From: Melioribacteraceae bacterium
Lineage (GTDB): Bacteria; Bacteroidota; Ignavibacteria; Ignavibacteriales; Melioribacteraceae
Direction: 5' to 3'
DNA length: 64,000 nt
Assembly: GCA_021739765.1 (NCBI GenBank)
Contig: JAIPBD010000002.1
Location: forward strand, 310,001-374,000
In this document: positions 1,679-45,838 of the stretch, piece after piece
Position numbering within the stretch: the stretch's first letter is position 1
Layout of the letters: each line of letters opens with the position of its first letter
Notes under the pieces: generated by a model
What the model was told of the DNA's origin: nothing
The model's database searches: none
The model's input: the letters and a program-made list of their open reading frames with translations, nothing else
Made by a program: the position numbers and the translations under genes

Positions 1679-1800
1679 GATATTCTTTTCCTTAATTTAT
1701 ATAATTATTTTTTATTTAATTATAGTTGAAGAGTATCTTTTTTTAATCTTAATCGGGATAATTGTTGACCGATTATTTCGGTTAGTGTGGGTATAAGGTC

Positions 1801-2979: not shown

Positions 2980-3001
2980 TCTTATTCGCCTTTAATCTTG
3001 T

Positions 3002-4684
3002 TTATAATTGTACGCGAACGGTTTGGACCGAGTTCGCTTCAATCATTACTTTTGCAAATTTTTCCCCAATCTGGAGGTTATACTCGATTGGTTCTTTCGT
3101 GGTATTTAGCAGCTGAACGCTCAAAATATTGTTTTCGTTAATAGTTGAACACGCATGCAATGCATCCGAATCTAATCCACTCAATGTTTTATCTGTTTGA
3201 AGTGCTTTATCCCCCGGACGGATAGTTTTGCTGAATTGTGCCAACACATCAAAAATAGGAGTGTAATAAACTTCTTTGGTTTCTGTATCAATCATAATCG
3301 GAGCACCGCAAAAATTACCCACATGATTTGGTCCACCATTCTTATCAAGTACAATATTCCAATCAACCCAACCGGTAACCCAATTATTTAAGCTCACAAT
3401 TATGTTTCTCGCGTATCTGTGCACAGGTGTGTAAATAGGATGATCTTCAATTTTTACACCAGGCCATGTGGCGGTATATGCCCAATCCGTCGCGTTATGA
3501 TTCCACCAAAAAGCATCATTTTTGAACCAATCTTTTTCCTGATATTTTTCAGGATCGGTTATGCCTTGAGGAGCCGGCTTGCCCAAATCATCAATACATC
3601 CCTCAGTATGAATTATTTTATACTGTGGAAATTTATTATTAACTCGATTAAATACATCTTCATAAACTTTAAACGTACTCTCATACCAATGAACTGCAAC
3701 CCCATAAACAAAAGGAGCTGTTTCGGGATCACCGAATATTACGTCAGTCCATTCTTCAATTCCATCTCTGTTTTGATCGTAAATCAACAAATTTACATCG
3801 GCTTGATTATTGGATTCGAGTGTTGGACCAAGGTGACTTTTAATAAATTCATTTTGCGATTCGGGTGAAAAATGCATGCTTTCCCACTGACCATTGTTGC
3901 CGTGCGGTTCGTTTACGGGAGTCAAGCCCCAAATATCCACACCTTCGTTTTTATAGGCGTCGATATATTTGGAAATGTAATCCGCATAAACTCCAACATA
4001 TTCCGGCTTCAATGAACCACCTGTTCCCTGGTAGTTGTTCTCGGGCGCTCCTTTTATATACCAATCTTCAATATCTTTCATCCAGGATGGAGCGGTCCAT
4101 GCAGAAGCGATAATCCTAAGTTCATCATCGTTTTGTATTCCCTTAATCTCCATTGCTTCTTTGATCATTGGCAGTAAATCGTACTTGGTATTTTCCAGAT
4201 TAGGATATTTCGATTTATCGAATCCTTCCTTATCCGGATTTATTGAAAAAGATTTTAATTCAGTATCACCGGCTTTATCAACGTATGAATAACGCCCATC
4301 CACGCAAAAATCGCATGCACCAATGTGAGTTCTAGTTAAGGTAAAGTTTGCTCCCTTTTCGCTAAAAATATTCTCCATCACTTTTCTTCGTTCGGATTCT
4401 TTGAGATGAGCCAGTACAAACGCGGAGGATTCAGTGAAAGAGGTTCCGATTCCATCAATAGTTTGTTTGATTTTTGCGGGATCAACCTTGATGATATTCC
4501 CTTGCGGCTTGCCTCCTACAAATTCGACGTTCTCTTGAGGAGATATTTTCGCACCGGATTCTGATGTTGAAAGAATCTCTAATGTTGATTCCAACTCAAC
4601 AACTTCATGATCGTTGTTTTTGTTACAAGCGTTCAATATAAATATTCCCAGAATAGTTAGAATTAATGACTTCAAATATTTCAT
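3002..4684 (-). CDS. GH30-family glucanase/glucosidase lipoprotein
   Basis: GH30 enzyme of about 560 residues. The start at 4684 is preferred over an in-frame ATG at 4702 because AAAAGG lies eight bases before it. The lipobox is LNAC (Cys20). GIGTSFTES, SAWTAPSWMKD and TPVNEPHG mark the TIM barrel; the acid/base is Glu259 in NEP and the nucleophile Glu361 in HTEG. A beta-sandwich follows at the C-terminus. GH30 subfamilies include beta-1,6-glucanases, glucosidases and glucosylceramidases; next to GH16 and GH17, removal of beta-1,6 branches from laminarin-like glucan is the best guess. About 40 bases separate it from the cytosolic GH17 gene upstream. Confidence 0.88.
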   Translation of the reverse strand: MKYLKSLILTILGIFILNACNKNNDHEVVELESTLEILSTSESGAKISPQENVEFVGGKPQGNIIKVDPAKIKQTIDGIGTSFTESSAFVLAHLKESERRKVMENIFSEKGANFTLTRTHIGACDFCVDGRYSYVDKAGDTELKSFSINPDKEGFDKSKYPNLENTKYDLLPMIKEAMEIKGIQNDDELRIIASAWTAPSWMKDIEDWYIKGAPENNYQGTGGSLKPEYVGVYADYISKYIDAYKNEGVDIWGLTPVNEPHGNNGQWESMHFSPESQNEFIKSHLGPTLESNNQADVNLLIYDQNRDGIEEWTDVIFGDPETAPFVYGVAVHWYESTFKVYEDVFNRVNNKFPQYKIIHTEGCIDDLGKPAPQGITDPEKYQEKDWFKNDAFWWNHNATDWAYTATWPGVKIEDHPIYTPVHRYARNIIVSLNNWVTGWVDWNIVLDKNGGPNHVGNFCGAPIMIDTETKEVYYTPIFDVLAQFSKTIRPGDKALQTDKTLSGLDSDALHACSTINENNILSVQLLNTTKEPIEYNLQIGEKFAKVMIEANSVQTVRVQL

Positions 4685-4723
4685 AAAATTTACCTTTTTC
4701 ATTTTATAAGAGCAAAATCTATA

Positions 4724-5614
4724 TCAAGTATATTTAAGATTTCCGTCTTTGTCCCAGAGTCCCCAATATGCCCCGACATCTCCCTCAGCAGCAATTTTCC
4801 ATGTTTCATCAAAACTTGAGAAGTAGAATATTTCCACACCTTCAGCTGCCGCCCAACGATAAGCATCGATAAAATATTTAAGAGCGTTTTCGAAGGATGG
4901 TACAGAACCCTTCACATTGCTTCCACGATTCGGCCAACCGGTTTCAGAGATAATAACTTTTTTCCCTTTACCGGCATGCGCAGCTCGTCGATACATTTCT
5001 TTCATATATAAATGCGCGTGCTCGATTGGATATCCTTCCCAGAAAGGATAACAATTCGTCAATATTATATCGCAGGCATCCGCGATATTCGGGTGTACAT
5101 TAAATTCATAATACGCGTCAACATAAGCTACCGGAATGCTCGGGAATTCTTCTTTAACTCTTTCCATCAAAGCGATAATTTCATCTTCATGCAAATCGCC
5201 GCGTAAAAGTACTTCATTTCCCACAGCCAGTATGTTCGCGTAACCTTTTGACGCAACCTCCATTAATCCTTCTATCTCTTTTTCATTCTTTTCTTTGTCA
5301 TGCCCAATCCATGCACCAACCATAGATTTCAAACCATTTTCATAAGCAATTTGAGGAATTAATTCATTTCCTTCCGTGCAAGAAAAAGTACGCAGCCATT
5401 TAACATAAGGTTTTATGATGCCAATTCGTTTTCTGATCATTTCCGGGTCCAGCTGCGAACCGGGTGCTTGTCCTTCGAAATACGCGCTATACGCAATACC
5501 GTGAATTCCATTTTCTAAAATCTCACGAAAGATTTTCACCAAATCTTCTCTCGAAAGAGTATTTAAATCTAAACCAGATAAGTTTGTAAGAACCCGTGCT
5601 CTGCTATGACTCAT
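4724..5614 (-). CDS. GH17-family glycosidase, probably cytoplasmic
   Basis: A 296-residue GH17-type TIM barrel with no signal peptide. The acid/base is Glu134 in AVGNEVL and the nucleophile Glu224 in SETGWP. The start codon lies two bases after the stop of the universal stress protein gene, so translation is probably coupled. An intracellular GH17 beside a GPH symporter suggests that glucan oligosaccharides are imported intact and cut inside, by hydrolysis or transfer. Shared motifs with the lipoprotein GH17 at 551-1678 suggest paralogy. Substrate and product size cannot be read from the sequence. Confidence 0.85.
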   Translation of the reverse strand: MSHSRARVLTNLSGLDLNTLSREDLVKIFREILENGIHGIAYSAYFEGQAPGSQLDPEMIRKRIGIIKPYVKWLRTFSCTEGNELIPQIAYENGLKSMVGAWIGHDKEKNEKEIEGLMEVASKGYANILAVGNEVLLRGDLHEDEIIALMERVKEEFPSIPVAYVDAYYEFNVHPNIADACDIILTNCYPFWEGYPIEHAHLYMKEMYRRAAHAGKGKKVIISETGWPNRGSNVKGSVPSFENALKYFIDAYRWAAAEGVEIFYFSSFDETWKIAAEGDVGAYWGLWDKDGNLKYT

Positions 5615-5616
5615 TT

Positions 5617-6123
5617 CTATTCTCCATTTAATACTTTTTGATCAACATTATGAACAACTAATACCGGTAATTCTGTCCGGTGCAATACTCTACGAACTGT
5701 ATCACCCATTGTCGCATCATCAAGAGACGACCGGCCTTGAACACCCATTACGATAATATCGCATTTTCTTTTTCTCGCTACATTTAACAACGTCTTAACG
5801 GGATTTCCAACTTCGACCACAATATCTTCAGATTTAACCGCTTCAGTTCCAAATTCATCTTCCAGTTGTTTCAATATTGCATCTTTGGTTTCATTAACGT
5901 GATCCTTCACAATTTTCAATCTACTTTGCACACCTCCAAGTCGATCTATCCCGACGTCGAAGATCAACAGGTCAAGTAAATCATCTTGCAGAACATGAAC
6001 CAAAGTTAACTTCGCGTTAAACTGGTTCGCAATTGCCCGTGCATGTGAGAAGACTATACCGCTATCGGTAGATAAGTCTGTTGCAAACAAAACATGTTTA
6101 AAAGTTATTACCGGAATCGCCAT
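5617..6123 (-). CDS. universal stress protein (UspA family)
   Basis: A 168-residue single-domain Usp. The ATP-binding signature G-x2-G-x9-G is present as Gly127, Gly130 and Gly140, followed by Asp-Thr instead of the usual Ser/Thr. The N-terminus FKHVLFATDLS is typical. AGGAGAAACGA precedes the ATG. It is a cytosolic nucleotide-binding protein of unknown specific role. Its place inside a glucan operon, with its stop two bases from the GH17 start, is unusual. Confidence 0.9.
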   Translation of the reverse strand: MAIPVITFKHVLFATDLSTDSGIVFSHARAIANQFNAKLTLVHVLQDDLLDLLIFDVGIDRLGGVQSRLKIVKDHVNETKDAILKQLEDEFGTEAVKSEDIVVEVGNPVKTLLNVARKRKCDIIVMGVQGRSSLDDATMGDTVRRVLHRTELPVLVVHNVDQKVLNGE

Positions 6124-6181
6124 TCGTTTCTCCTAATATTTAATTTTTATCTGTTATAATTTATTATTTCAATCTTATCAA

Positions 6182-7210
6182 TTACATCAGAATATACTTA
6201 TCGGGAATACCATCATACCCCCAAGCTCTAAGCTGGCGTGACCATCCTCCAAGATTGTCAATGGTAACTTTGATTAATTTCATCTCGTAATTTTCTTTAA
6301 CTTCTTCACCTAAGAAAATTTTGTCAATAACTTTTTCTACGGCTATTTCACCCCATCGAAAAGTTGGCTGACCTAAAAAGGCGTTTACTATTCCTTTTTC
6401 AATATATGGCAGTTGAACCGGCAGAGCATCAACGGCTACAATTTTGTATTTGCCCGGTTCCAGTTTATTAAGAAGATAATCACTGAAAAACGGCCAGCCG
6501 CCAACCATAGCCCATCCATCGAGATCCGGATGTTCCGCGTTTACTCTCAGCACTTCGGCTGAAGCTGTCTCTGCTGTTTCTCCATGATAAACTACTTCAA
6601 CTATTTCAATATCAGGATAATTTTTTGCTTCGGCGAGTACACCGATCATCCTTTTCTTAATATTCGGGGCATTTAAACTTCCGCCAAGAACGGCGATTTT
6701 GCCTTTTCCATTTAGCAAAGCAGCCAGCTCTGTAAATACAGTCCTACCCATTTTTTCGTCATTAGGCCCGTAAAAGGAAAATCGTTTTGAATCCGGCGCG
6801 TCACTATCAAAAGTCATAACAGGAATACCACTGGCGACAGCATCGTTAATCGCTTTTGTTAAAGTATCGGTATCAGAGCATGAAACGATAATCGCGTCAG
6901 TTCCATCTTGAACGGCATTAATTATTCTTTCAGCTTGCTCAACCGGATTTTCCTCAAGCGGAGTTCTCCAGCTGATACTAAGATCCAATAAGCTGTGCTT
7001 ATCCGTTAAATCTTTAGCGGCAGCTTCCGCACCAATTTTTGCCGAAAGGAAGACAGGATTATTCGAACTTTTCGCAACCATTGTGATATTTACTTGTTTC
7101 ACATTCTCGGGCTTTTTCCCAACATATTCATCGGTAATATCCTGACATCCGTTAAATATGAATACACTTAACATCAACGCAAATAAGTAGTTTTTAATAT
7201 TCAGTTTCAT
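6182..7210 (-). CDS. periplasmic sugar-binding lipoprotein (RbsB/LacI-like fold)
   Basis: Substrate-binding protein of the Peripla_BP_4 type, about 342 residues. The start at 7210 is chosen over 7243 because GAGAAGGA lies about nine bases before it and the signal then begins MKLNIKN, ending in lipobox FNGC (Cys22). Family features are VSCSDTDTLTKAI, the DSDAPDS hinge segment and GWAMVGGWP near the ligand cleft. Such proteins normally serve ABC importers, but no permease or ATPase gene is nearby: the neighbours are a GPH symporter (23 codons' distance or less) and Usp. It may be an orphan receptor, feed an importer encoded elsewhere, or present sugar to a sensor. Confidence 0.87.
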   Translation of the reverse strand: MKLNIKNYLFALMLSVFIFNGCQDITDEYVGKKPENVKQVNITMVAKSSNNPVFLSAKIGAEAAAKDLTDKHSLLDLSISWRTPLEENPVEQAERIINAVQDGTDAIIVSCSDTDTLTKAINDAVASGIPVMTFDSDAPDSKRFSFYGPNDEKMGRTVFTELAALLNGKGKIAVLGGSLNAPNIKKRMIGVLAEAKNYPDIEIVEVVYHGETAETASAEVLRVNAEHPDLDGWAMVGGWPFFSDYLLNKLEPGKYKIVAVDALPVQLPYIEKGIVNAFLGQPTFRWGEIAVEKVIDKIFLGEEVKENYEMKLIKVTIDNLGGWSRQLRAWGYDGIPDKYILM

Positions 7211-7266
7211 TTTTTGTTTCCTTCTCTCAATTATTAATTTCACACAGAGTAAAATTAAATAAATAT

Positions 7267-8730
7267 TTACGCAGTAACCTTACTCGCTCTTGCTGCAGCG
7301 TGTCTCAACTCTAATTCATCACGTATTTCCATCGATCGTTCTTCCGTGATCTTAAATTTCCAAACCGCATAAATTGAAATACCTGCGCACACTGCGGGAA
7401 TTAACACATCAAACATTTTCATCATTTCGAATGTTGCAGCAGATTGCGCTCCGCCTAAGTCAACCTCAAATCCGGTAATATTAAGAAGATATCCAGATAA
7501 TCCAAATGCCAATGCCATTCCTAATTTAACCATCCACCAGTAAATTGAACCAAACATTCCTTCCCGTCTCTCACCTGTTTCGAGTTCATCCAAATCGCAA
7601 ACGTCAGCTATCATCGATCCCATAAGTGTGAAGAGTCCTCCCATCCCTACAGCCATTAATGGCGCGGGTAATAAGACTTTCCAGGGTAATAACGGATCGT
7701 AGCAAAACCATTTTAATAAACTTCCGACCAATGTAACTGCAGTTGCCAGAACGAATGTTCTTCTTTTTCCTAATTTTGAAGATATCCATGTAACCAACGC
7801 GATTGAACCGAGGGTAGCGGCAGTATTAATTGTGCCGAATAATCCCATGTATCTCGCACCTAAATCTGTATCACCGCCACAAACATAAAATATTGTTATG
7901 TATGAGGAGAAAGCACCTACAAGCATAATTCCGTTAAAAAGGAAAAATGTACCAACGCATAACTTTAAGAATTCGACACGTTTTAATGTTATTACCAACC
8001 CTTTAACAAACATTGCGATATTCTCTTTTATTCCCGCGAGTACGCTTTTCTTCGCCCCTTTTTCAACATCCGGCGGCACATAACTTTCGCGGCAGAAAAT
8101 TGCGGGCATAATTCCAAGAACGGCTACAAAAACACCAATTATAATGGCGAGTGTTCGAGCCCCTTCAACAGAGTTTGAAAATAATCTGTCATTTTCCATT
8201 ATCGCATAAAACCAGGGAAGAGAAATCCAGGCAAACTGACCCATGAAGTTCATCACCGCCATAAGACGGGTTCGTTCATGATAATCCGAAGTTAATTCAT
8301 AACCCAAAGCTACCCAGGGAGTAGCAAAGACGGTATAAAACATATAAAATACGATTGATCCGACGAGGAAGAACCAGAAATAAAACATTTCGCTGTGACC
8401 GGCAGGAAGCTGCCACATGAGTGCGAAAATTGTTCCTACTCCAATTGCTCCAATAAATATGTATGGTCTTCGCCTTCCAAATCGAGATCGGGTTTTGTCC
8501 GAAATATATCCCATAATCGGATCAGTAAGAGCATCCGTGAATCTTGGAATGGCCTGTAATGTCCCAACCAATGCTGGATTAATACCTAACCCGACATTTA
8601 ACACAATTGACATAAACCCGATGGCTCCACCCAAAAGGTTATTTACAATTGATCCAAGTCCGTAAGAGAACATTTGACCATTTGAGAGTTTTTTCTTCGA
8701 CGGGGTTTCATGGTTTGCTTTTGAACTCAA
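7267..8730 (-). CDS. GPH-family sugar:cation symporter (MFS)
   Basis: A 487-residue inner-membrane transporter of the glycoside-pentoside-hexuronide family (MFS_2), with about twelve hydrophobic segments. The family hallmark region is present: DALTDPIMGYISDKTRSRFG followed by RRRPY in the first half, and GMFGSIYWWMVKLG in the second. The start is a TTG directly after AGGGAGGAG; the nearest in-frame ATG is 19 codons on and would cut into the first conserved region. It would import glucan oligosaccharides or glucose with Na+ or H+. Its place between laminarinase and sugar-binding genes supports that; the exact substrate is inference. Confidence 0.9.
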   Translation of the reverse strand: MSSKANHETPSKKKLSNGQMFSYGLGSIVNNLLGGAIGFMSIVLNVGLGINPALVGTLQAIPRFTDALTDPIMGYISDKTRSRFGRRRPYIFIGAIGVGTIFALMWQLPAGHSEMFYFWFFLVGSIVFYMFYTVFATPWVALGYELTSDYHERTRLMAVMNFMGQFAWISLPWFYAIMENDRLFSNSVEGARTLAIIIGVFVAVLGIMPAIFCRESYVPPDVEKGAKKSVLAGIKENIAMFVKGLVITLKRVEFLKLCVGTFFLFNGIMLVGAFSSYITIFYVCGGDTDLGARYMGLFGTINTAATLGSIALVTWISSKLGKRRTFVLATAVTLVGSLLKWFCYDPLLPWKVLLPAPLMAVGMGGLFTLMGSMIADVCDLDELETGERREGMFGSIYWWMVKLGMALAFGLSGYLLNITGFEVDLGGAQSAATFEMMKMFDVLIPAVCAGISIYAVWKFKITEERSMEIRDELELRHAAARASKVTA

Positions 8731-8827
8731 TGACTCCTCCCTGATATTTTTTGAACGACTTCCCGTTAAAAAGGGCTTTTTTATTGACGCTTATGCGATA
8801 AATTTTTACTTGATCAGTCTATAATTT

Positions 8828-9640
8828 TTATTTATAAACTCTTACATAATCAATTGTCATTTGTTGAGGGAAAACAGTTTGATCGTTTGGCCATCCGACA
8901 TAATTTCCACCAACTGCTAGGTTTAGAATGATGAAAAAGTCGTGATCAAATACCCACTCCCCATTCACATCTCCCGGGGATACGGATTGATAAAGGTTGC
9001 CGTCAACATACCATCGAATAAAATCATTTCCCCATTCGACGGCGAATGTGTGAAAATCCGTATCAAATCTGGCGGCTGTTAAATCGTATCTTTTTGTTTT
9101 TGGTTGGCCGCCGGAATAACCCGGTCCGTGCAAACTTCCATGAATTGTTGAGGGTTCTTGACCTCTAAATTCCATAATATCGATTTCACCACATTGGGGC
9201 CATCCTACATCGTCGATATCCGCACCCAACATCCAAAATGCAGGCCAAATACCGGCACCGTAAGGCATTTTAATTCGTGCTTCAATTTTACCGTAAGTTT
9301 GTTCGAATTTATCTTTGGTAGTAATTCTGGCTGAGGTGTAGCTTCTGCTTTCGTAATTTTCCTTAATTGCGGTAATAACTAAATTTCCATTTCCATCGAG
9401 TGATACATTTTCCGGACGGTCTGTATCATATTCAAGTTGAGCATTTCCCCAATCTGTGCCAATATCCAAATTCCAATAATTTGAATTAGGAAGTGTTCCC
9501 GATTCTCCCGTGAATTCATCACTCCATGCCAAAGTCCACTCTTGTGATTCCGGATCATTCGATGAACTACACCCGCTGAATATTAGGAGGATTAAGAAAA
9601 AGGATACAAGAATAATAACTTTAGGCTTGATTCGTTCCAT
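8828..9640 (-). CDS. GH16 laminarinase lipoprotein
   Basis: Bacterial-type endo-1,3-beta-glucanase of 270 residues. Lipobox FSGC (Cys24) anchors it. The active-site signature GEIDIMEFRG gives nucleophile Glu152, Asp154 and acid/base Glu157; WSDEF near residue 40 and IWPAFWMLG (131-139) are conserved laminarinase segments, and the C-terminus ends MTIDYVRVYK as usual. It would make laminari-oligosaccharides at the cell surface or in the periplasm. It lies between the ROK regulator and the GPH symporter. Confidence 0.93.
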   Translation of the reverse strand: MERIKPKVIILVSFFLILLIFSGCSSSNDPESQEWTLAWSDEFTGESGTLPNSNYWNLDIGTDWGNAQLEYDTDRPENVSLDGNGNLVITAIKENYESRSYTSARITTKDKFEQTYGKIEARIKMPYGAGIWPAFWMLGADIDDVGWPQCGEIDIMEFRGQEPSTIHGSLHGPGYSGGQPKTKRYDLTAARFDTDFHTFAVEWGNDFIRWYVDGNLYQSVSPGDVNGEWVFDHDFFIILNLAVGGNYVGWPNDQTVFPQQMTIDYVRVYK

Positions 9641-9668
9641 AATACTATCTCGAAAAGTTTACAAAAAA

Positions 9669-10949
9669 CTAATTAGGATTAAATGAACTAAACTCTGAAT
9701 TGTGCGATTGATTGCTTAAAAAACTTGTTTTGGCAAATGCTTCTTCCAATGCGAGTGTGGCAGCCCCGAATACAACAGCATCAGGGCCTAATGAACTCAT
9801 AGTGATCACTACCGGATCTTCGGTCTGAACCAGCACCGTTTTTTTAACTTTCTCCTGGACAGGTTTTAGTAAAAGATCACCAACACGAGCTAAACTTCCA
9901 CCAATGATAATTTTATCCGGATTAATAATATTTGATAAACCCGAAATCGCGACTCCCAGATAGTCAGCCGCTTCTTGTATAACTCTCGTCGCGGCGAGTT
10001 CACCCCGCATAGCGGCGTCTATTAAATCAACTAAATTTATTTTTTGGTCAATATCATATCCATGAGGTTGGGTGCCTAAAAGAACTTTGTATCTATTGAT
10101 TAACGCATGCTCTCCAACTAATGTGGTTAAACATCCTCTTAATCCGCATACACATTCCTCGCCGTAAATATCAATTGGCATGTGCCCAAACTCACCGGCG
10201 AGTCCTTTTCCGCCTCGGTAGAGTTCCCCTCTAAAAATGTAACCGGCTCCGATTCCATGACCAATTTTAATATACACAAGGTCATTAGTCCCCTTTCCGG
10301 CTCCCCACCAAAAAGCGGCTAACGCGCCAAGATTTGCATCATTATCTATGTACACAGGTACATTGTACCTATCCTTCAATAAATTCAAATCACTTTTTCC
10401 GTGCCATGCAGGAATAACAATTTCTGAGAGTAAATCCGGTTTCCCCGTCTCTACCGGACTCGGAACTGCCACACCAATACTTAACAGCGTTGTACTATCG
10501 TGTTCTGTAATTGATAAACACTCATCGCAAAATTCATAAATGATTTTCCTTGTGCCCTCGGGATCATCCACCACATTATGTTTTCTTTCTCTCCAAACCA
10601 ACGGCTTTCCTTGCAGATCGGTAAGAAGCACGGTAATGTGAGTGGCTCCTACATCAACTCCAAGAATACATCTGGCTCCATACTGAAATTCCAAAACTAT
10701 CGGTTTTCTGCCACCGGTTGATTTACCGTCTCCAACTTCGGCTATTAAACCAGTCAACAATAATTCCTTAATAATTTCAGTTACAGTTGATCTTGAAAGC
10801 CCAATTTTTTTCGCGATATCGGCACGAGAAATTCTATTCTCTCTCCAAATCAGTCTCAGAACTGAATCGGTTAAAGTACCCGCCAACTTAGGGTCGGCCC
10901 TTCTCGTACCGGTACCATGATTTATACTATTCATAATTCCATAATTCAT
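9669..10949 (-). CDS. ROK-family transcriptional regulator
   Basis: A 426-residue ROK repressor. Residues about 25-75 form a winged helix-turn-helix (SRADIAKKIGLSRSTVTEII), followed by an actin-like sugar-kinase fold starting GVDVGATH. The zinc/ROK signature His256 with C-x-C-x4-C (Cys266, 268, 273) is intact. Family members such as NagC and XylR bind palindromes and are released by a sugar ligand. The gene is second in the operon, 23 bases after the repeat lipoprotein gene, and is the only DNA-binding protein encoded here, so it is the natural reader of the two palindromes at 15107 and 15397. An ATG five codons downstream is an alternative start; neither has a strong ribosome-binding site. 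Confidence 0.92.
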   Translation of the reverse strand: MNYGIMNSINHGTGTRRADPKLAGTLTDSVLRLIWRENRISRADIAKKIGLSRSTVTEIIKELLLTGLIAEVGDGKSTGGRKPIVLEFQYGARCILGVDVGATHITVLLTDLQGKPLVWRERKHNVVDDPEGTRKIIYEFCDECLSITEHDSTTLLSIGVAVPSPVETGKPDLLSEIVIPAWHGKSDLNLLKDRYNVPVYIDNDANLGALAAFWWGAGKGTNDLVYIKIGHGIGAGYIFRGELYRGGKGLAGEFGHMPIDIYGEECVCGLRGCLTTLVGEHALINRYKVLLGTQPHGYDIDQKINLVDLIDAAMRGELAATRVIQEAADYLGVAISGLSNIINPDKIIIGGSLARVGDLLLKPVQEKVKKTVLVQTEDPVVITMSSLGPDAVVFGAATLALEEAFAKTSFLSNQSHNSEFSSFNPN

Positions 10950-10972
10950 TTCAGATGTATACTCAGAATATA

Positions 10973-13900
10973 TTATTTATGAAATATTACATTATCGATA
11001 TACACCGTTGGGAAATCTCCACTAATAATCAATTGCGCTACATGACCTTTTGTTGTTAGGCCAGTAAAATCTGATAGCGGAATATTTAATGTTACCCATG
11101 TTTCACTCGCCAAAGCTGGAGTTGAAGATGCGGTTAATATAACCTCATGCTCTACGTTATCTCCCCCTTCTTCCCATACACCATTGGCGCCGAAATCAAC
11201 TAATTTGATTTTGAATGATCCCGAAGTCGTTGGATTAGGTGTCCAAAAATCTAAACTGATATGAGTCATATCGGAGGCATCAACAGTTGAAGTTGTGAAC
11301 TCTATACCCGAGAAAACTAAATCTGTATAAAGTTTTACATCATCGCCGGCAATTTGAGTATCCTCTAAATTTGCGTTATCCCAATCTGCCGACCACGTAT
11401 CAACCGTAATATTAGTATAAGCATTGCTAAATAATGAGATAACATCACCAGCCGCGTAAGTTGGAGCTGTCGCCGCACTTGTAGGCACTGTGCCGCTTGA
11501 CCCGACATCTCGTTTCGTGAAGTAAACATTATCAACATAAACGATTGGAAGATCACCGGAAATAACAATTTGGGCCAGGTGTGCTTTGGTTGTCAGGTTT
11601 GTGAACTTCGCCAGCGAAACTTCCAGACTAACCCATTTCTCTGATTCTAATCCCGGGATAGTAGAAGCCGTAAAACTCATTTCATGCGAAACATCATCTC
11701 CGCCATCAAAAGCGCCATCCGCTCCAAAATCGATCAACATCACTTTGAATGCGGCAGGTATTGCTGTTGAGTTTGGAGTCCAAATATCCATATGAAACGT
11801 TTTCATTTCGGTAGCATCGATAGTATTCGTCGCGAACTCAATTCCGTTAAAGTTTAAGTCTGTATATTTTAGTACATCATCACCGCTGATTTGTACTTCC
11901 TCCAAAACCGCTGTTGAGAATTCCCATCCGGTCGCCCATGCATCGATAGTAACATCAGTATAAGCATTGCTGAATAATGATATAACATCACCGGATGCGT
12001 CCGTAGGTGTTGGTGCAGGTCCGCTTGGAGCAGGAGTAGTATCTCCCAATTCTCGTTTTGTGAAATAAACATTATCGATAAAAACGGTTGGAAGATCGCC
12101 GGAGATAACAAGCTGCGCCAAGTGTGTTCGTGATGTTAATCCGGTAAAATCCGATAGGGATACTTCTAAACTTATCCAAGTTCCTGTTTGCAGACCGGGG
12201 ATCGTTGAGGCTGTAAATACCATCTCATGAGAAGCATCATCACCCCCATCAAAAGCGCCATCAGCACCAAAGTCTGTCAGTTGCACTTTGAAAGTCGCGG
12301 GAAGCGCGGTTGAACTAGGCGTATAAATATCCATGTGGAATGTTTTCATCGCACTCGCGTCAATTTGATTTGTTACGAATTCAATTCCGTTAAAATTCAA
12401 GCTCGTGTATTGTTTTACATCATCACCATTTATTTGAATATCAGCCAAAACAGCCGTTGAAAATTCCCATCCGGTCGCCCAATTATCAACCGGAACATCA
12501 GTATATGCATTGCTGAATAATGAAATTACATCTCCGGCCGCATCAGTTGGAGTTGGCGCGGTTGTAGTCGGTACAACTCCACCTCCTCCCGCTGCAGCTT
12601 CGAAATAGATGTTATCAACAAAAATTGTTCCATTTCCTACAAATTTGAATTGAATAATGTCGGTTATCGTTAGACCCTTTCCGGTGTATTCGGATAATTC
12701 AATATCCAAACTTACCCATTGATCTTTTGTAATTGTTACATCGTATGCTTGTTCACCTGAACCTGTGCTTATCAAAAATACTTGAAAAGAAGACGCGTCA
12801 GTTGTCCAATAATCAAGATGAAGTTTTTCATAGCTTGAAAGATTTTGGGACGATCCTAATTCAATCCCTTGATAATCCAACCCGGCCATCTTCAAAGTGT
12901 TATTTCCGGCTACAAGTACTTCAGAAGTTGAAGTTGCTTGTCCCCAATCGGGATTTAAATTTGTACCGGCGACATTAGTATAAGCATCACTAAAAATTGA
13001 GATCACATTTACCGCACTTGCCGTTGGAGTTGGAGCTGCGGTTGTTGGCTCGGTGTCGCCACCGCCTCCGCCGCCTCCGCCTATATCACGTTTTGTGAAA
13101 TACACGTTATCAACGAACACTGTTGGTAAGTCACCTGAAATAACCATTTGCGCCAAATTTGATTTTGTCGTTAATCCGCTAAAAGCAGATAAAGGCACTT
13201 CGAGACTTACCCAGCTTTCTGTTGCCAGCGCAGGAGTAGTCGAAGCCGTAAAGGTCAATTCATGTTCTTTATCATCACCGCCGGAATAAGCGCCATCCGC
13301 TCCGAAATCAATCAATTTTACTTTGAATTCAGCAGAAGTTGTTGCATCCGGAGTCCAGATATCCATATGGAATGTCTTCATTTCAGAAGCGTCAATCTGA
13401 TTTGTGATGAATTCAATTCCGTTAAAATTCAAACTTGTGTATTGTTTTACATCATCACCATTTATTTGAATATCAGCCAAAACAGCCGTTGAAAATTCCC
13501 ATCCGGTTGCCCATGAATCGATAGTAACATCAGTGTATGCGTTACTGAACATTGATATCACATCGGATGCGGCATCTGTTGGAGTTGGAGCAGCAGTTGT
13601 TGGAGCTGACCCGCCGCCTCCACCGCCGCCATCTATTTCACGTTTCGTAAAATATAAGTTATCGACGTAAACAGTTGGTATATCACCGGAAATAACGATC
13701 TGTGCAATTTTTGATCGTGATGTTAATCCGGTAAACGCGCTCAACGGAACTTCCAAACTAACCCATTCTTGGCTCTTAAGAGCAGGATCGGTTGAAGCAG
13801 TAAAAGAAAGTTCGTGAGAAAGATTATCATTGCCGCCAATGGTTCCATCAGGACCCATATCAACAAGCAACACTTTAAATGAAGCCGGAAGCGCTGTTGA

Positions 13901-15043
13901 ATTAGGTGTCCAGATATCCATGTGGAAGGTTTTCATTTCAGTCGCGTTAACAGGACTCGATTCAAGAACAATTCCGTTAAAGTTTAATTTTGTGTATAAT
14001 TTTACATCGTTTCCTGCTATTTGGAGTTCTTGATAAGCTGTTGTCGAAAACTCCCAGCCAGGCATCCATGAATCAACAGGAACGTTTGTATAAGCATTGC
14101 TGAAAAGTGAAATTACATCCGATTGCGGATCGGTAGGAGTTGGAGCCGCGACCGTCGGTGCCGGTGGAGCTTCTTCAACACTCACCACTAACGAATCGGA
14201 AATAGTTTGCGATTTAAATGAACCTTTGATAACCGCAGTACCAAGCCCAACGCCTTTAACAACACCGTAAGCATTTACGGTTGCAACTGTCGGATCACTT
14301 GATGTCCATGAAAAATATCCCGGCATACATCCAATAGTTTGATCAACACCGGCTACATTTAATGTAACAGATGCTCCTTGTACGGTAAGACTATCTCCCG
14401 GAAATACAATCTCATCCACGGTTGAAAAAGTTGCTCTCGGTTGAGCGATTGTGCCTAATTTTTCGAATTGAATTTCATCTATCCAAAGGTAATAGCCTAA
14501 GCCGTTTTCAGGTCCTTCAGCGAACCAGAAAAGCCCTTGTTCCGCTTTCAACTTCGAGGGATCGGGAATTGGGATAATGTATTTTGCCCAAGCGGTTGTT
14601 AAAGTATGATTTGTACTTGTAACAACATATTTAGAACTGCCTGTATTATCATTTCCCAGTCCAATTTCATTCAATGTAGCGTCTTTACTACCCTTTGCCC
14701 AAAATGTTACGGCATCATAACCGCTTAAATCTCGCGGAACGGCTGCAACAAGAGAAGCGCCGGCATACGCGCCGGTTGGATCGCCAACATTAGGAATCTT
14801 AATTCTCATTGAACTTTCACCGGAATAGACAACATCATTATCAATTTCTAACGCATCAACTTTCGAATTTCCAAACGATTGGTATTGCACACTCGGCCCG
14901 AACACATCTGAAAAGATGCCTGAATCTTGAGGATATTCTGCGGGTGCAAGGATTTCAGTATCTCTTTCACAGCCACTTATTAATACCATTAAAACCAGGG
15001 TCGTAAAGGTTAACGCGCTGTAAAATAAGCTCCTAATCTTCAT
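10973..15043 (-). CDS. large lipoprotein with six carbohydrate-binding-like repeats
   Basis: First gene of the glucan operon, about 1356 residues. The start at 15043 is chosen because GGAG lies six bases before it and the signal then reads to lipobox LISGC. Next come a CBM-like domain (about residues 30-200), a Big_2-type Ig domain (TVATVNAYGVVKG) and six repeats of about 150-180 residues opening with PTPTD-like linkers plus DVISLFSNAYT and closing with PTVYVDNVYFTKR-like strands. Gly-rich linkers separate repeats 1-2, 2-3 and 3-4. The third repeat is shorter and divergent. No catalytic motif is visible. It probably binds beta-glucan at the cell surface, like SusE/F, but I cannot assign a CBM family. 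Confidence 0.85.
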   Translation of the reverse strand: MKIRSLFYSALTFTTLVLMVLISGCERDTEILAPAEYPQDSGIFSDVFGPSVQYQSFGNSKVDALEIDNDVVYSGESSMRIKIPNVGDPTGAYAGASLVAAVPRDLSGYDAVTFWAKGSKDATLNEIGLGNDNTGSSKYVVTSTNHTLTTAWAKYIIPIPDPSKLKAEQGLFWFAEGPENGLGYYLWIDEIQFEKLGTIAQPRATFSTVDEIVFPGDSLTVQGASVTLNVAGVDQTIGCMPGYFSWTSSDPTVATVNAYGVVKGVGLGTAVIKGSFKSQTISDSLVVSVEEAPPAPTVAAPTPTDPQSDVISLFSNAYTNVPVDSWMPGWEFSTTAYQELQIAGNDVKLYTKLNFNGIVLESSPVNATEMKTFHMDIWTPNSTALPASFKVLLVDMGPDGTIGGNDNLSHELSFTASTDPALKSQEWVSLEVPLSAFTGLTSRSKIAQIVISGDIPTVYVDNLYFTKREIDGGGGGGGSAPTTAAPTPTDAASDVISMFSNAYTDVTIDSWATGWEFSTAVLADIQINGDDVKQYTSLNFNGIEFITNQIDASEMKTFHMDIWTPDATTSAEFKVKLIDFGADGAYSGGDDKEHELTFTASTTPALATESWVSLEVPLSAFSGLTTKSNLAQMVISGDLPTVFVDNVYFTKRDIGGGGGGGGDTEPTTAAPTPTASAVNVISIFSDAYTNVAGTNLNPDWGQATSTSEVLVAGNNTLKMAGLDYQGIELGSSQNLSSYEKLHLDYWTTDASSFQVFLISTGSGEQAYDVTITKDQWVSLDIELSEYTGKGLTITDIIQFKFVGNGTIFVDNIYFEAAAGGGGVVPTTTAPTPTDAAGDVISLFSNAYTDVPVDNWATGWEFSTAVLADIQINGDDVKQYTSLNFNGIEFVTNQIDASAMKTFHMDIYTPSSTALPATFKVQLTDFGADGAFDGGDDASHEMVFTASTIPGLQTGTWISLEVSLSDFTGLTSRTHLAQLVISGDLPTVFIDNVYFTKRELGDTTPAPSGPAPTPTDASGDVISLFSNAYTDVTIDAWATGWEFSTAVLEEVQISGDDVLKYTDLNFNGIEFATNTIDATEMKTFHMDIWTPNSTAIPAAFKVMLIDFGADGAFDGGDDVSHEMSFTASTIPGLESEKWVSLEVSLAKFTNLTTKAHLAQIVISGDLPIVYVDNVYFTKRDVGSSGTVPTSAATAPTYAAGDVISLFSNAYTNITVDTWSADWDNANLEDTQIAGDDVKLYTDLVFSGIEFTTSTVDASDMTHISLDFWTPNPTTSGSFKIKLVDFGANGVWEEGGDNVEHEVILTASSTPALASETWVTLNIPLSDFTGLTTKGHVAQLIISGDFPTVYIDNVIFHK
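10976..14165 (-). repeat. six tandem coding repeats of a beta-sandwich domain
   Basis: Approximate limits on the plus strand: repeat 6 at 10976-11500, repeat 5 at 11515-12040, repeat 4 at 12050-12575, repeat 3 at 12600-13045, repeat 2 at 13081-13605, repeat 1 at 13632-14165. Poly-Gly linkers lie at about 13059-13080 and 13610-13632. Repeats 2 and 4 share a 98-base block (13410-13507 and 12378-12475) with only two differences that I can see, while repeat 3 has little DNA similarity to the others. Confidence 0.85.
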
Positions 15044-15106
15044 TTCATACTCCATTTTAGTTTCGGGACAATCTTTCAGGTAGAATTTGTGCAGTTTTCG
15101 ACTACA

Positions 15107-15155
15107 CTTTGTTCGACATACGAACAAAGATAAATTACTACCGTTCAATTGTCAA
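15107..15155 (-). promoter_or_regulatory. leftward promoter with overlapping palindromic operator
   Basis: Read on the minus strand: TTGACA (15155-15150), a 17-base spacer, then TATCTTTG (from 15132), which also fits the Bacteroidota TAnnTTTG box. The last four bases of that box belong to a perfect palindrome, CTTTGTTCG-N5-CGAACAAAG, at 15107-15129. A bound repressor would cover the -10 box and start site. The palindrome lies 64 bases before the start codon at 15043. Confidence 0.75.
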
Positions 15156-15370: not shown

Positions 15371-15419
15371 TTGACAAAAGAAAAAGCTTGAGTTATCTTT
15401 GTTCGTGCTCCGAACAAAG
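15371..15419 (+). promoter_or_regulatory. rightward promoter with overlapping palindromic operator
   Basis: TTGACA at 15371-15376, a 17-base spacer, TATCTTTG at 15394-15401, then the palindrome CTTTGTTCG-N5-CGAACAAAG at 15397-15419. Arms, spacer length and promoter geometry are identical to the leftward promoter; only the 5-base centre differs. Transcription would start near 15406, about 110 bases before the ATG at 15516. Confidence 0.75.
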
Positions 15420-15515
15420 AGCATTTTTTATAACTTTTTGGTAAATATTTCCCTCATTCTTCAAATAATTGCTCATTTAACGGGCAAATGATATCACATA
15501 ATTATGGAGGTTCTC

Positions 15516-18500
15516 ATGGTTTTGACTCGAATTAAAAGCAGCATCGCATTATTTGTGGTGTTTCTGTTTCTCTGCTTTGCATCAAATTCGATTGCACAGG
15601 TAGATAAAGTTTCGGTCTATTCCGATGATCAAGGTTCAAAAATTCAGGTAAATGGCGAAGATTTTATGGTGCTCGGTTTAAATTGGGATTATTTCCCCCT
15701 TGGAACCAATTATAACTATAGCCTCTGGAATCAATCTGAAGATATTATTAAAGCAGCGCTCGATCAGGAAATTCCGCTGGTTAAAGCAATGGGTGTTAAT
15801 GCTATCCGCCAGTACACCGGTGTTCCACCTAAATGGGTTAAGTATATTTATGAGGAATACGGAATATTTACGATTCTTAACCATTCCTTCGGTAGATATG
15901 GCGTTACAATCGACGGAGCTTATGTTTCTAATACCGATTACGGTGATCCAAAAACAAAGGAAGTACTTCTAAGTGAAGTAAAAGCGGTAGTTGAGGAATT
16001 TAAAGATACACCGGGTGTTTTAATGTGGCTGCTCGGAAATGAAAACAATTACGGTTTGTTCTGGGGTGGTGCCGAAACTGAAGATATTCCCGTCGGCGAA
16101 ACTTTAGAATCGGTTAGGGCAAGACATATGTACCAGCTTTTTAATGATGGAATTAACTTAATTAAATCGATGGACGATATGCGGCCGGTTGCTATAGCAA
16201 ATGGTGATCTGCTCTTTATAGAAATTATTGCCGAAGAAATCGAAAATTTGGACATTTTCGGAACTAATGTTTATCGCGGACTTTCATTCGGTGATGCATT
16301 CCAACGTGTTCAAGATCTTCTCGGACTGCCTATTTTATATACAGAGTTCGGAGCCGATGCTTTTAACGCCAGAACTCAACAAGAAGATCAATACAACCAA
16401 TCTGTTTATAATTTAGCGAACTGGAAAGAAATCTATCAAAATTCCTACGGAAAAGGTTTGGCGAATAATGCGGTTGGCGGGTTAACTTTCCAATTCAGTG
16501 ACGGATGGTGGAAATACGGACAAGAAACAGGGCTCTCAACTCACGATTCACACGCTTCATGGTCAAATGGCGGTTATTTGTTCGATTATACCGAAGATGG
16601 TAATAATATGAATGAAGAATGGTTCGGAATCTGCGCCAAAGGTCCTACAAACGCAATCGGACTTTACGAACTCTATCCAAGAGCATCTTACTACACTTTG
16701 AAAGAAGCTTATAAATTAGATCCTTACGGCCCGGGTGTAAATATTAATAAAATCAATTACCATTTTAGTAAAATCGGCTCTATGGAAGGATTATTAAGAG
16801 CAAGAGCGGATAAAGCCGCATTGGCGACTGAAGATATTAACAAACTCCGCGTCAGTGGCGTAAGAATGGAATTTGAAACTTATAGTACAGGTGGTGATTT
16901 AATTTCTACTCCGGATGCAAGACCTGAATTAGATAACACAAGTCCCGCATTTCTCGGATTCGACCACATGCAATCATTTTATGTAGATGTTGAGGCAAAT
17001 CCGGCGTCTAACGTTTCCGGAAAAGTATCTTTTAACATGCTCGGTAATGTGCCCCTTAATCCAATCGATGAAATATTTTATGAAAACCGCGGTCGTCCGA
17101 AAACTGTTTTAACCAAAGACGGCAGCATGACATTGAGCGACATCGAAAGATTTAAAATCTACAAAGCAAGTATTCAATGGACCGGCGACTGGTTTGATTT
17201 AGACGCTTTCTACCGAACGGGTCATTATCACTGGGGATATGAAGGAGACTTCTTCGGGCTTTATCCCGAATCCAATTACGGTGAAAATATTGATATTTAT
17301 AATGGTAACGCTCCACTTGGATTTGAAATCGAAGCGAAAAAATCTTTAGAAGGATTAAAAATTGCTTTCGGACCTGAACTATGGTGGGGAGCGAATCCGG
17401 CTATATTATTTAAATACAGCAAAGCTTACGGCCCATGGGAAATAACTGGAATGTATCACGAAGATCTTGATGAGCAAGGTACCGCTGTAAGTTCGTTTGC
17501 CGTTCCGTTGCCTCCGACAAGAAAAGCTACTCTTCATTTAGGTTATACATACGGAAAACTTGGAATCGAAGTCGGTGGAATTTGGTCTGGAAACACAAAA
17601 ATCAACCAAGATTTTCAAATTGTAACAGGTTCAACGGGAAATTATCAAGTTCTGCAAGATCAAATTAAACCATCCGACACTTATGGCGGAAAGGTTAAAA
17701 TTACTTTGAGCAGCGGAATCTGGAACTGGTACATGCAAGGTGCGGCCAAAGGACTTGTAGCCGACGGCGGTGTTAACCAAGCTCTTACTTTTACCGGATG
17801 GAGATTAAAAGATAGCGGAACCGGAAACCAATATAACTTCTTGTCCGGATTTACCGTTATTCTTGGTGATTTCCAAGTCGCCCCTAATTTTATGTGGCAA
17901 AAACCAATCGAAGGACCAATCCCGAACGATGTACAAGCTCCGGGAAGACCGAGAAATATTCTTGCTGATCCGTTTGCGGTTCGTGGAAATAGGGAAACAA
18001 CCGCGGGCGAATTGTTAATTACTTACGATCCGACTCCTGCCACATGGATGTACCAATGGAACAGTGATGTTATTGAAGACGCTCCATTCGCGGTCAGTGC
18101 CGGATTCGTTTACCGAAACCATCCCACAACACGTGATGCAGCAATCGGTATCTTAGGCGATGGAAGAACCATTTTTGCTTTCCCCGGTGCCCCGCCTGCA
18201 AGAGATTTGTGGGAAACACACGCAAGAATCGTTTCTAAATTATCCCATCGATTCGGCTTAATCGCGAACCTCTACGGTGGCACCGGCGAACCTAACGGCG
18301 ACGATGACAGATTAATTTACCGCTACGGCGGCGATCTTAGAGTTATTTACAATTCAATGAAATTAATGGCTTCGGTAAAAGTTAACGATTGGGGCCCTTA
18401 CGATTATCACAGAGATTTTAACCTGACTTATCCTTTACAAGTTATGGCCGATTTTTCAACTGTTGTCGGTACACCTAGATGGTTTGACCTCCCGTCAACC

Positions 18501-18674
18501 ACTTTCGGTGTAAGAGCCACATACAGATCATTAAACGAATATTCGCCTCGTTACTGTCCTACAATGACATTAAACGCGGCCGGAGAATTGGAATGTGACC
18601 CGACAGCTCCCGGATTCGATAACGGAAATGAATGGGAAATTAGAACTTATCTTCAATTAAGTCTTGGAATGTAA
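15516..18674 (+). CDS. glycosidase TIM barrel fused to a predicted outer-membrane beta-barrel
   Basis: A 1052-residue protein. The start at 15516 is chosen over 15504 because GGAGG lies five bases before it. A signal peptide ends at SIAQ. Residues about 30-405 form a clan GH-A barrel close to GH2-type catalytic domains, with MWLLGNENNYG (acid/base Glu176) and LYTEFGADA (nucleophile Glu277). From about residue 445 to the end the sequence alternates polar and hydrophobic residues in amphipathic strands rich in Tyr, Trp and Gly with turn loops, as in porin-like barrels, ending TYLQLSLGM. I do not recognise a named family for the whole protein. Co-control with the glucan operon suggests action on beta-glucan at the outer membrane; hydrolysis, transfer or export are all possible. 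Confidence 0.75.
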   Translation: MVLTRIKSSIALFVVFLFLCFASNSIAQVDKVSVYSDDQGSKIQVNGEDFMVLGLNWDYFPLGTNYNYSLWNQSEDIIKAALDQEIPLVKAMGVNAIRQYTGVPPKWVKYIYEEYGIFTILNHSFGRYGVTIDGAYVSNTDYGDPKTKEVLLSEVKAVVEEFKDTPGVLMWLLGNENNYGLFWGGAETEDIPVGETLESVRARHMYQLFNDGINLIKSMDDMRPVAIANGDLLFIEIIAEEIENLDIFGTNVYRGLSFGDAFQRVQDLLGLPILYTEFGADAFNARTQQEDQYNQSVYNLANWKEIYQNSYGKGLANNAVGGLTFQFSDGWWKYGQETGLSTHDSHASWSNGGYLFDYTEDGNNMNEEWFGICAKGPTNAIGLYELYPRASYYTLKEAYKLDPYGPGVNINKINYHFSKIGSMEGLLRARADKAALATEDINKLRVSGVRMEFETYSTGGDLISTPDARPELDNTSPAFLGFDHMQSFYVDVEANPASNVSGKVSFNMLGNVPLNPIDEIFYENRGRPKTVLTKDGSMTLSDIERFKIYKASIQWTGDWFDLDAFYRTGHYHWGYEGDFFGLYPESNYGENIDIYNGNAPLGFEIEAKKSLEGLKIAFGPELWWGANPAILFKYSKAYGPWEITGMYHEDLDEQGTAVSSFAVPLPPTRKATLHLGYTYGKLGIEVGGIWSGNTKINQDFQIVTGSTGNYQVLQDQIKPSDTYGGKVKITLSSGIWNWYMQGAAKGLVADGGVNQALTFTGWRLKDSGTGNQYNFLSGFTVILGDFQVAPNFMWQKPIEGPIPNDVQAPGRPRNILADPFAVRGNRETTAGELLITYDPTPATWMYQWNSDVIEDAPFAVSAGFVYRNHPTTRDAAIGILGDGRTIFAFPGAPPARDLWETHARIVSKLSHRFGLIANLYGGTGEPNGDDDRLIYRYGGDLRVIYNSMKLMASVKVNDWGPYDYHRDFNLTYPLQVMADFSTVVGTPRWFDLPSTTFGVRATYRSLNEYSPRYCPTMTLNAAGELECDPTAPGFDNGNEWEIRTYLQLSLGM

Positions 18675-18711: not shown

Positions 18712-18733
18712 CCCCGCTCATGCGGGGTTTTTT
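18712..18733 (+). terminator. intrinsic terminator
   Basis: CCCCGC-TCAT-GCGGGG stem followed by six T, 37 bases after the stop of the GH/beta-barrel gene. Confidence 0.92.
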
Positions 18734-43371: not shown

Positions 43372-43397
43372 AAAGTACTCCAATTTAAGCCATTCTT

Positions 43398-43413
43398 AAG
43401 TAAGCGTTTACTT
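43398..43413. promoter_or_regulatory. LacI-type operator before the CE8 gene
   Basis: AAGTAAGCGTTTACTT, a 16-base near-palindrome centred on CG with one mismatched pair, 27 bases before the start codon at 43371. It differs by one base from the perfect site at 59379. Confidence 0.7.
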
Positions 43414-43619
43414 TAGACGGCAATTTTTTTTACACCTTTCTAATTAGTTTTATTAATTGGTAGGATGGATGGTTCATCATTTTTTATAGGTGTGAAATAA
43501 CGGAATCAGATGAAAATGGTTTCTTGAATTAAATTTCTCTTTGCTCCGGTTGTATTTGTGGAAATTCAGAAATAGGTAGAATATTGTTTTTTTGGTGGGA
43601 AATTCGAATGTGGGATTGA

Positions 43620-44189
43620 TTAAAACTTATCATTTTTTGCGATGATAAATATTGAGTCACCATCCTCAAATTCTTTGTACAGATATTCTGACTGAACTGT
43701 AAAATATTTAGATATCATTTTGTTCAACTTTAGTTTATCGTGATAGACAAACAGCATGCCTTCTAAAGTTAATTCTTTATCCCCTAACCAGAATGTATGA
43801 GCGAATATCCCATTTTTTTCCAAAACGTTTTGTTGACGTTTTAAAGATTTGTCTAATTCTTCGATTGTCAGATGCTGAAGAACTTTGTTCGAAAAAATGC
43901 AATTGAATTTTGAATCAACATCAATCGAAATCGCATCCAATTTGAGAAAAGGCAATTCTGGGAATTTCGCTCGACATCTATTCAAAAATTCGTCAGACAA
44001 ATCGGATCCCGTCACTTTATATCTTTCCATAAGATTTTCAACATCATTCCCCGGACCGCATCCTAACTCCAACAATGTCGCACCTTTCCTTAAAAAAGTA
44101 TCGAGTAATTCATAAAGCTCCGATCCATCATATTCGGAACACATCTTTTCGTACTCATCAACATTTAGTGAATCGTTGTAAAATTCCAA
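43620..44189 (-). CDS. class I SAM-dependent methyltransferase
   Basis: 189 residues. LLELGCGPGNDVENL is the SAM-binding motif I, followed by VTGSDLSDEFL (acidic motif II) and FNCIFSNKVLQHL. The start appears to be a TTG with AAGGAT upstream. The substrate is unknown. It lies about 50 bases after uxaE in the pectin operon, but nothing in it links it to pectin; it may be a small-molecule methyltransferase. Confidence 0.8.
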   Translation of the reverse strand: MEFYNDSLNVDEYEKMCSEYDGSELYELLDTFLRKGATLLELGCGPGNDVENLMERYKVTGSDLSDEFLNRCRAKFPELPFLKLDAISIDVDSKFNCIFSNKVLQHLTIEELDKSLKRQQNVLEKNGIFAHTFWLGDKELTLEGMLFVYHDKLKLNKMISKYFTVQSEYLYKEFEDGDSIFIIAKNDKF

Positions 44190-44239
44190 TAGTTTCTATC
44201 CTTAAATAGGAATATTTCAGAGGTGTAAATTACAATTAA

Positions 44240-45793: not shown

Positions 45794-45838
45794 AATTTCA
45801 CCTATAAATATTTCACCTGAGTATATTTTTTAATACTT

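Follow-up and report, generated by a model that had tools for sequence, protein, structure and literature searches.

By what route do beta-glucan fragments cross the outer membrane when the genes for their breakdown are clustered without a SusCD pair? SusCD is the usual explanation for how Bacteroidota take up laminarin, a major storage glucan of algae. The question is raised by a 64,000-nucleotide stretch of a Melioribacteraceae genome (assembly GCA_021739765.1, contig JAIPBD010000002.1, positions 310,001 to 374,000; hereafter the window, whose first letter is position 1), in which one plus-strand gene (15516-18674) encodes a 1052-residue chain made of a signal peptide, a clan GH-A glycosidase and a predicted outer-membrane beta-barrel. 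We think it rather probable that this fusion protein is the outer-membrane importer of a SusCD-free utilization system for beta-1,3-glucan of the laminarin type, with its glucanase tethered at the periplasmic mouth of the pore. In that role it may replace the usual energy-driven uptake pump in the beta-1,3-glucan breakdown clusters of many bacteria.

The open reading frame (ORF) at this place extends from 15504 to 18674 if an earlier in-frame ATG is counted. The start at 15516, given in a first-pass annotation made from the sequence alone, is the likelier one because a GGAGG (15506-15510, found by eye) sits 5 bases ahead of it. By eye, the signal peptide (residues 1-28; 15516-15599, plus strand) ends in SIAQ and has no lipobox; a helix is predicted at residues 2-22. 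It is followed on the same strand by the GH-A TIM-barrel domain (about residues 30-400; 15603-16715), a linker that contains two helices in the predicted models (about residues 410-440; 16728-16844) and the beta-barrel domain (about residues 444-1052; 16845-18671). The joining of a glycosidase to an outer-membrane barrel in one chain was the central proposal of the first-pass annotation, and it stands, the barrel as a prediction. A terminator-like hairpin seen by eye directly 3' of the gene (CCCCGC-TCAT-GCGGGG and a T run; 18712-18733, plus strand) follows the stop codon, which suggests that the gene is transcribed on its own.

The enzyme half has the features that define clan GH-A: a (beta/alpha)8 barrel, an Asn-preceded acid/base Glu on strand 4 and a nucleophile Glu on strand 7. 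The predicted acid/base is E176 (in N175-E176; codon 16041-16043, plus strand) and the predicted nucleophile E277 (in T-E-F-G; codon 16344-16346, plus strand); both residues, and N175, are identical in 83 of 83 aligned sequences. With a Pfam match of Glyco_hydro_2_C to residues 80-311 (E 6.1e-9; 35.9 bits against a cut-off of 21), this confirms the GH-A assignment and the two catalytic glutamates named in the first-pass annotation. The match does not single out GH2, because other GH-A proteins in the data examined match the same model. The TIM barrel begins directly after the signal peptide, with no GH2-type N-terminal sandwich and Ig-like domains ahead of it, and LacZ-type NCBIfam models score far under their cut-offs on the fusion protein. 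The best profile match in the Protein Data Bank (PDB) was BuGH158 (6pal; E 8.5e-7 for the whole match, 30.5 bits; best stretch 129-320 at 2.3e-4), followed by GH158(Pro) at E 3e-4, and Foldseek ranks 1-8 were taken by GH157 and GH158. In structural alignment GH157 and GH2 tie with GH158, and a PDB search with the single sequence returned mostly beta-galactosidase-type matches, with GH157 (0.0064) and GH158 (0.1) weak among them. The enzyme half thus appears nearest to GH157, GH158 and GH2 and is a candidate endo-beta-1,3-glucanase of provisional family placement. Like the endo-beta-1,3-glucanases BuGH158/GH158 and GH157 it combines the GH-A fold with N-E and E catalytic residues; unlike it, they have no barrel, and in structural alignment the identity to them is about 20%.

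The C-terminal half is predicted to be an outer-membrane beta-barrel, as the first-pass annotation had supposed in calling it porin-type. AlphaFold modeled residues 405-1052 as a chain that is nearly all beta (pLDDT 82.9, pTM 0.78), in which antiparallel, amphipathic strands are joined by long loops on one side of the barrel and by short turns on the opposite side. We counted 24 transmembrane strands; DSSP lists 26 strands of at least 7 residues, and the count (24-26) hinges on weak strands, as does its comparison with the 22-strand barrel of TonB-dependent transporters such as SusC. Among the fold matches listed for this model, outer-membrane barrels (by title) made up 50 of 50 from Foldseek and 50 of 50 from VIA-align, at low TM-scores (at most 0.35 of the query); barrels ranked low by Foldseek fall outside the listed structural matches. 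None of 200 column shuffles reached the strand-alternation score of the C-terminal half, and the N-terminal half scored under the mean of its own shuffles. A soluble beta-sandwich C terminus, the outcome that the first-pass annotation had said would overturn it, is rejected on the AlphaFold model and the fold matches. A type V autotransporter is likewise rejected, given 24-26 strands over about 600 residues versus a 12-strand C-terminal translocator.

Carbohydrate channels are found among the fold matches, and the domain shares its outer-membrane beta-barrel fold with AlgE, OprD/Occ, chitoporin and maltoporin; those barrels have 16-18 strands and are not known to carry a fused enzyme, and the PDB search found no sequence relation between them and the window's barrel. 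That search returned no sequence relatives of the barrel at E≤10, no Pfam or NCBIfam match (E≤0.1) reaches past residue 311 of the fusion protein, and a PHROGs search found nothing. No Plug domain was detected in the Pfam scan of the fusion protein, nor at its place in the genome search, and just two helices precede the strands in the C-terminal model. With 24 strands, odd strands are followed by loops averaging 23 residues and even strands by turns averaging 5 (permutation 0.00017); by the usual rule, the even strand count and this loop-length pattern would put both chain ends in the periplasm.

Sequence comparisons mark the fusion as a widespread conserved family that is confined neither to this genome nor to Ignavibacteria. 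A scan with the barrel of 84,980 genomes, one per species, yielded at least 498 confirmed relatives; we read the 80 best. The whole protein is spanned in 76 of these 80 loci, at lengths of 1025-1152 residues. Two of the exceptions begin at a contig edge (L041, L091), one ends at one (L095), and in the last, a metagenome-assembled genome, the fusion gene is disrupted into two frames (L087, 8816-11953); these four, with L034, L110, L111, L114 and L115, were excluded from the large alignments. Among 58 other genomes of relatives, four (L005-L008) encode the full protein with 66-69% end-to-end identity to that of the window, and a fifth (G030) has a piece of the fusion at a contig end. Across the class, the barrel profile found the family in 13 of 392 genomes, including the window's own and the same four; 12 of these matches lie in frames of 1015-1111 residues and the remaining one runs off a contig end. 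Among 296 genomes from the order of a Flavobacterium, 13 have the fusion, always in frames of 1042-1082 residues; three further matches there (E 0.1-0.6) look like chance. Chance, artefact or frameshift as the origin of the fusion is ruled out by the four genomes that carry it end to end and the 76 loci that hold it whole.

The best 80 relatives come, by their titles, from Ignavibacteria, Bacteroidales, Flavobacteriales, Saprospirales, Chitinophagales, Balneolia and Gemmatimonadota, with one or two each from KSB1, Calditrichia, Zixibacteria/GN15, Marinimicrobia and Thermoanaerobaculia. Most relatives are metagenome-assembled, so single odd taxa may be binning errors; named flavobacterial strains also carry the fusion (e.g., L081, L089 and L093). 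The survey of the domain pair proposed in the first-pass annotation has thus found it conserved in Ignavibacteria and far beyond. The barrel was not seen without the enzyme, except as a 99-residue barrel-end fragment in genome G171, whose main fusion copy is cut short and lies on a different contig, and in the frame-broken L087. An enzyme-profile search of 12 genomes (E≤1e-10) gave exactly one match per genome, the fusion. Stand-alone relatives of the enzyme half, lacking the barrel, are present in L010 (997-2349) and L011 (955-2352), where they bear a carboxypeptidase-regulatory-like domain and are each flanked by GH3 and GH16 genes.

A Bacteroides finegoldii record (L142, NZ_OY725931.1) also holds a copy, followed downstream by a protein whose Big_2 match is sub-threshold, by a GH16 gene and, three genes on, by BglX. 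NCBI names this copy "glycoside hydrolase family 2 TIM barrel-domain containing protein," and since the name covers the GH2-type TIM barrel only, annotation and counts of polysaccharide utilization loci (PULs) can miss the barrel half. The record is circular, 46 kb long and labeled "plasmid 29"; it also encodes valine--tRNA ligase and rpsA and may for that reason be a mislabeled piece of chromosome.

The genes that accompany the fusion point to glucan breakdown. We counted neighbors in those 59 loci, out of 80, that include 9 kb or more of downstream sequence, accepting relatives anywhere in the locus in a six-frame search; an earlier count on non-overlapping ORFs had given less (GH16 57, lipoprotein 51 of 59). 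Relatives of GH16 are present in 58 loci, of a surface lipoprotein candidate in 56, of an MFS transporter in 43, and of GH17, GH149, GH30 and GH3 in 38, 34, 28 and 16, respectively. GH149 and GH3 are nearly mutually exclusive beside the fusion, one or the other occurring in 49 of 59 loci and both in 1. One GH149 representative (L049) has an E=0 match to the solved structure of a beta-1,3-oligosaccharide phosphorylase (6hq6), so loci bearing GH149 point to beta-1,3-glucan; no gene of the window's operon matches the GH149 cluster. By a simple pattern, a lipobox is present in 53 of 78 members of the lipoprotein cluster and 39 of 71 of the GH16 cluster, compared with 3 of 75 of the fusion.

TonB receptors are scarce beside the gene. 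TonB-receptor/SusC profiles found a single receptor in the 80 loci (1.46 Mb), at the edge of L032; the density of Plug matches in 12 of the genomes concerned, each with 22-64 matches, predicts about 12.6. The window's own genome has 30 Plug matches. The two profiles drew on 13 receptors (8 long, 5 short). Tried as a control on receptors that had not gone into them, they recovered 3 of 5 and 6 of 8, so distant receptors could be missed; single-sequence receptor searches of the loci found none. A SusC/SusD pair beside the fusion was likewise not seen, on the evidence of the SusC/TonB-receptor profiles (1 of 80 loci), SusD not having been searched by its own model. On the window's contig the nearest above-cut-off Plug match lies about 35 kb off, at 51601-54846, in a region of pectin genes.

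In the window, the counterpart of these neighbors is a divergent glucan operon on the minus strand (551-15148; all its genes lie on that strand). The gene nearest the fusion (10973-15148) encodes the surface lipoprotein candidate, with a Big_2 domain, a lipobox by eye and six repeats 159-185 residues apart that are separated by glycine-rich linkers; its signal peptide starts about 30 residues past the mechanical ORF start at 15148. It is related to the gene adjoining the fusion in most homologous loci, where homologues downstream of the fusion range from about 450 to 1340 residues. In the L049 homologue a CBM11 match falls under its cut-off, and "glycan-binding" is accordingly a guess. Next come a ROK-family regulator with a winged helix-turn-helix (9669-10949), a GH16 protein of the endo-beta-glucanase family with a lipobox by eye (8828-9640), an inner-membrane MFS_2 sugar transporter (7267-8730), a periplasmic binding protein-like protein (Peripla_BP_4; 6182-7243), again with a lipobox by eye, and a universal stress protein-like protein (5617-6123). 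The operon continues with a GH17 protein without a visible signal peptide (4724-5614), a GH30 protein with a lipobox by eye (3002-4702), a 392-residue secreted protein that has no Pfam family and no relatives in the 80 loci (1801-2979) and a GH17-like lipoprotein (551-1678), whose Pfam GH17 match is sub-threshold (20.7 of 28.2 bits) and which is related to a neighbor cluster with GH17 members.

The fusion gene and this operon appear to be regulated together. A palindrome, TTTGTTCG-N5-CGAACAAA, lies upstream of the fusion gene (15398-15418) as a putative ROK operator, and an identical copy lies upstream of the likely start of the operon (15108-15128). The first-pass annotation had pointed to this common palindrome; its two exact copies, one ahead of each divergent gene, have no other counterpart anywhere in the genome (4.5 Mb), even with 1 mismatch allowed. 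From their position, the ROK protein may be what binds them. Elsewhere in the family, the regulators near the fusion include a relative of a Y_Y_Y/HTH sensor (28 of 59 loci), a hybrid two-component protein (16) and a ROK protein (12).

We propose the following scheme for import. At the cell surface the neighboring lipoprotein would hold the glucan and the GH16 lipoprotein would cut it, and the pieces would enter through the wide barrel that lacks a TonB-type plug. On the periplasmic side the tethered GH-A domain would shorten them as they leave the barrel, GH30 and GH17 lipoproteins would trim them further, and the inner-membrane MFS transporter would move the products on to the cytoplasm, where GH17, or GH149 in many relatives, would complete the breakdown. 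Because GH-A cutting, the GH30/GH17 lipoproteins and the MFS transporter would keep the gradient inward, uptake could be one-way, a hydrolysis ratchet. The ROK protein would act on the palindrome that the two promoters have in common and keep both repressed as long as sugar is absent. The substrate of the enzyme, the location of each lipoprotein, the direction of transport and the binding by ROK are read here from sequence and gene content; the periplasmic side of the enzyme and the coupling of cutting to uptake are the weakest parts of the importer reading, although coupling to passage is the inference we prefer. We hold only tentatively the stronger proposition, that a TonB-independent pore of about 24 strands, with its own glucanase at the periplasmic mouth, is driven by cutting of the incoming chain and represents a widespread, undescribed kind of importer. 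Were it true, Bacteroidota (with a gut Bacteroides among them) and Gemmatimonadota would have in this family a stand-in for SusCD at their beta-1,3-glucan loci, and so, on the evidence of one or a few metagenome-assembled genomes each, would Calditrichota, KSB1, Zixibacteria, Marinimicrobia and Acidobacteriota.

The side of the membrane on which the enzyme sits is where this scheme is most open to challenge. If the chain were threaded, or its first strand started outside, the enzyme would lie on the cell surface and feed its products directly into its own pore. A surface enzyme adjoining a pore would also explain the fusion, and the related BuGH158 of the Bacteroides beta-1,3-glucan locus is proposed, in the accessible text of the source, to be a surface endo-glucanase, with a location that PSORTb could not predict (PMC7157763). 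We nevertheless regard this arrangement as unlikely, since the even strand count and the loop-length pattern would set both ends in the periplasm, the surface cut could be made by the near-ubiquitous GH16 protein, and the barrel is far larger than the translocator of an autotransporter. We give still less weight to the idea that the barrel is a mere anchor for the glucanase, with fragments crossing by general porins or by a SusCD pair elsewhere in the genome. Its attraction is that these genomes are rich in TonB receptors, by the Plug counts above, and that not all outer-membrane barrels are pores: Wzi, titled a carbohydrate-binding barrel, is among the fold matches. Lipidation would be a cheaper anchor, seen by eye in the GH16, the GH30 and one GH17 of the operon, and a 600-residue barrel conserved like the enzyme (mean identity to the window protein 0.63 versus 0.62), with a well-conserved inner face (variability as entropy, 0.97 versus 1.43 for the outer), suggests more than attachment. 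Against our own interpretation it must be said that inner-face conservation is partly built into the measure, which weakens this evidence.

AlgE exports alginate, and by analogy the system could make or remodel beta-glucan, with a glucanosyltransferase joined to an export pore. The first-pass annotation had allowed for such building as well as cutting, and here the data depart from it: the recurrent neighbors that can be named (GH16, GH17, GH30, GH3, GH149) are degradative or catabolic, and GH149 phosphorylase, GH3, MFS and the sensor and ROK regulators indicate breakdown. No glucan synthase was found among the neighbors scanned with Pfam, those outside the recurrent clusters mostly not having been scanned. 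We consider export very improbable and return to import as the preferred interpretation.

Comparison with described systems suggests what may be new. The SusCD-type locus 1,3GUL of Bacteroides encodes GH16, GH158 and GH3 enzymes (PMC7157763) and, as far as the accessible text describes it, resembles the window's system in having a surface binding protein, endo-glucanases, an importer, an exo-enzyme and a sensor. Import there relies on a TonB-dependent transporter together with a SusD homologue, and the GH158 enzyme is encoded separately and bears a lipoprotein signal, whereas in the window pore and enzyme form one chain and no TonB receptor adjoins the gene. GH149 genes of Bacteroidetes lie both in PULs and in susCD-less clusters of carbohydrate-active enzymes (CAZymes) with GH16/GH17 and GH3/GH30 (PMC5827456), and the window's glucan locus and its homologues are probably of the latter kind. 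The accessible text of that paper names no outer-membrane importer for the susCD-less Bacteroidetes clusters; PMC10811738 also lists such glucan-enzyme clusters, and the accessible portions of the two surveys name no outer-membrane route for those of Bacteroidota. For this role the fusion protein is, from its sequence and neighbors, a candidate, and its family offers a single testable one. If cutting drives passage, outer-membrane import would have a power source other than TonB.

A precedent for tying a glucanase to a transporter in one chain is Formosa FbGH17b, an MFS-GH17 fusion for laminarin use (PMC6246565). As accessibly described, it combines a helical inner-membrane transporter with GH17, whereas the window's fusion joins a predicted outer-membrane beta-barrel to a GH157/158-like enzyme. 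That paper was the only one to turn up when the open-access literature was searched for porin-glycosidase fusions. The accessible text of PMC7553746 and PMC11573768 does not mention the fusion protein, that of PMC11005184 offered nothing useful on PULs or gene clusters, and an unclassified "GH0" listed in expressed laminarin loci in PMC10108472 could conceivably be the fusion protein. In the open-access literature and domain libraries searched, the parts are known and the joined protein was not found described, in keeping with the first-pass statement that no characterized protein has this layout; the whole would be a system akin to a PUL whose importer is of a new type.

As a general partner of the outer-membrane fusion, the MFS-GH17 fusion is ruled out: of the 13 cluster members of 650-900 residues, 10 were scanned with Pfam and comprised 6 GH3, 3 MFS and 1 true MFS-GH17 fusion. 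The last (L099, 16482-18833) is like Formosa's and shares its locus with the outer-membrane fusion, so that enzyme-transporter fusions seem to occur there in both membranes. In three MFS ORFs of 688-705 residues (L059, 15182-17296; L069, 13757-15871; L080, 13849-15912), the best Pfam stretch begins at residue 308-318, which may reflect an extended N terminus, an insertion or a miscalled start.

Two further observations concern polysaccharide genes elsewhere in the genome. The window's pectin locus (39814-56236) encodes a pectinesterase with a type IX secretion system (T9SS) tail, a pectic acid lyase, a TonB receptor with a carboxypeptidase-like domain and, where SusD would be expected, a 723-residue protein without a Pfam family (49399-51570). 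On contig C4 of the same genome (L002, 1489-3141), a 550-residue protein has an above-cut-off match (2.9e-11) to the GH72 glucanosyltransferases, a family known mainly from fungi.

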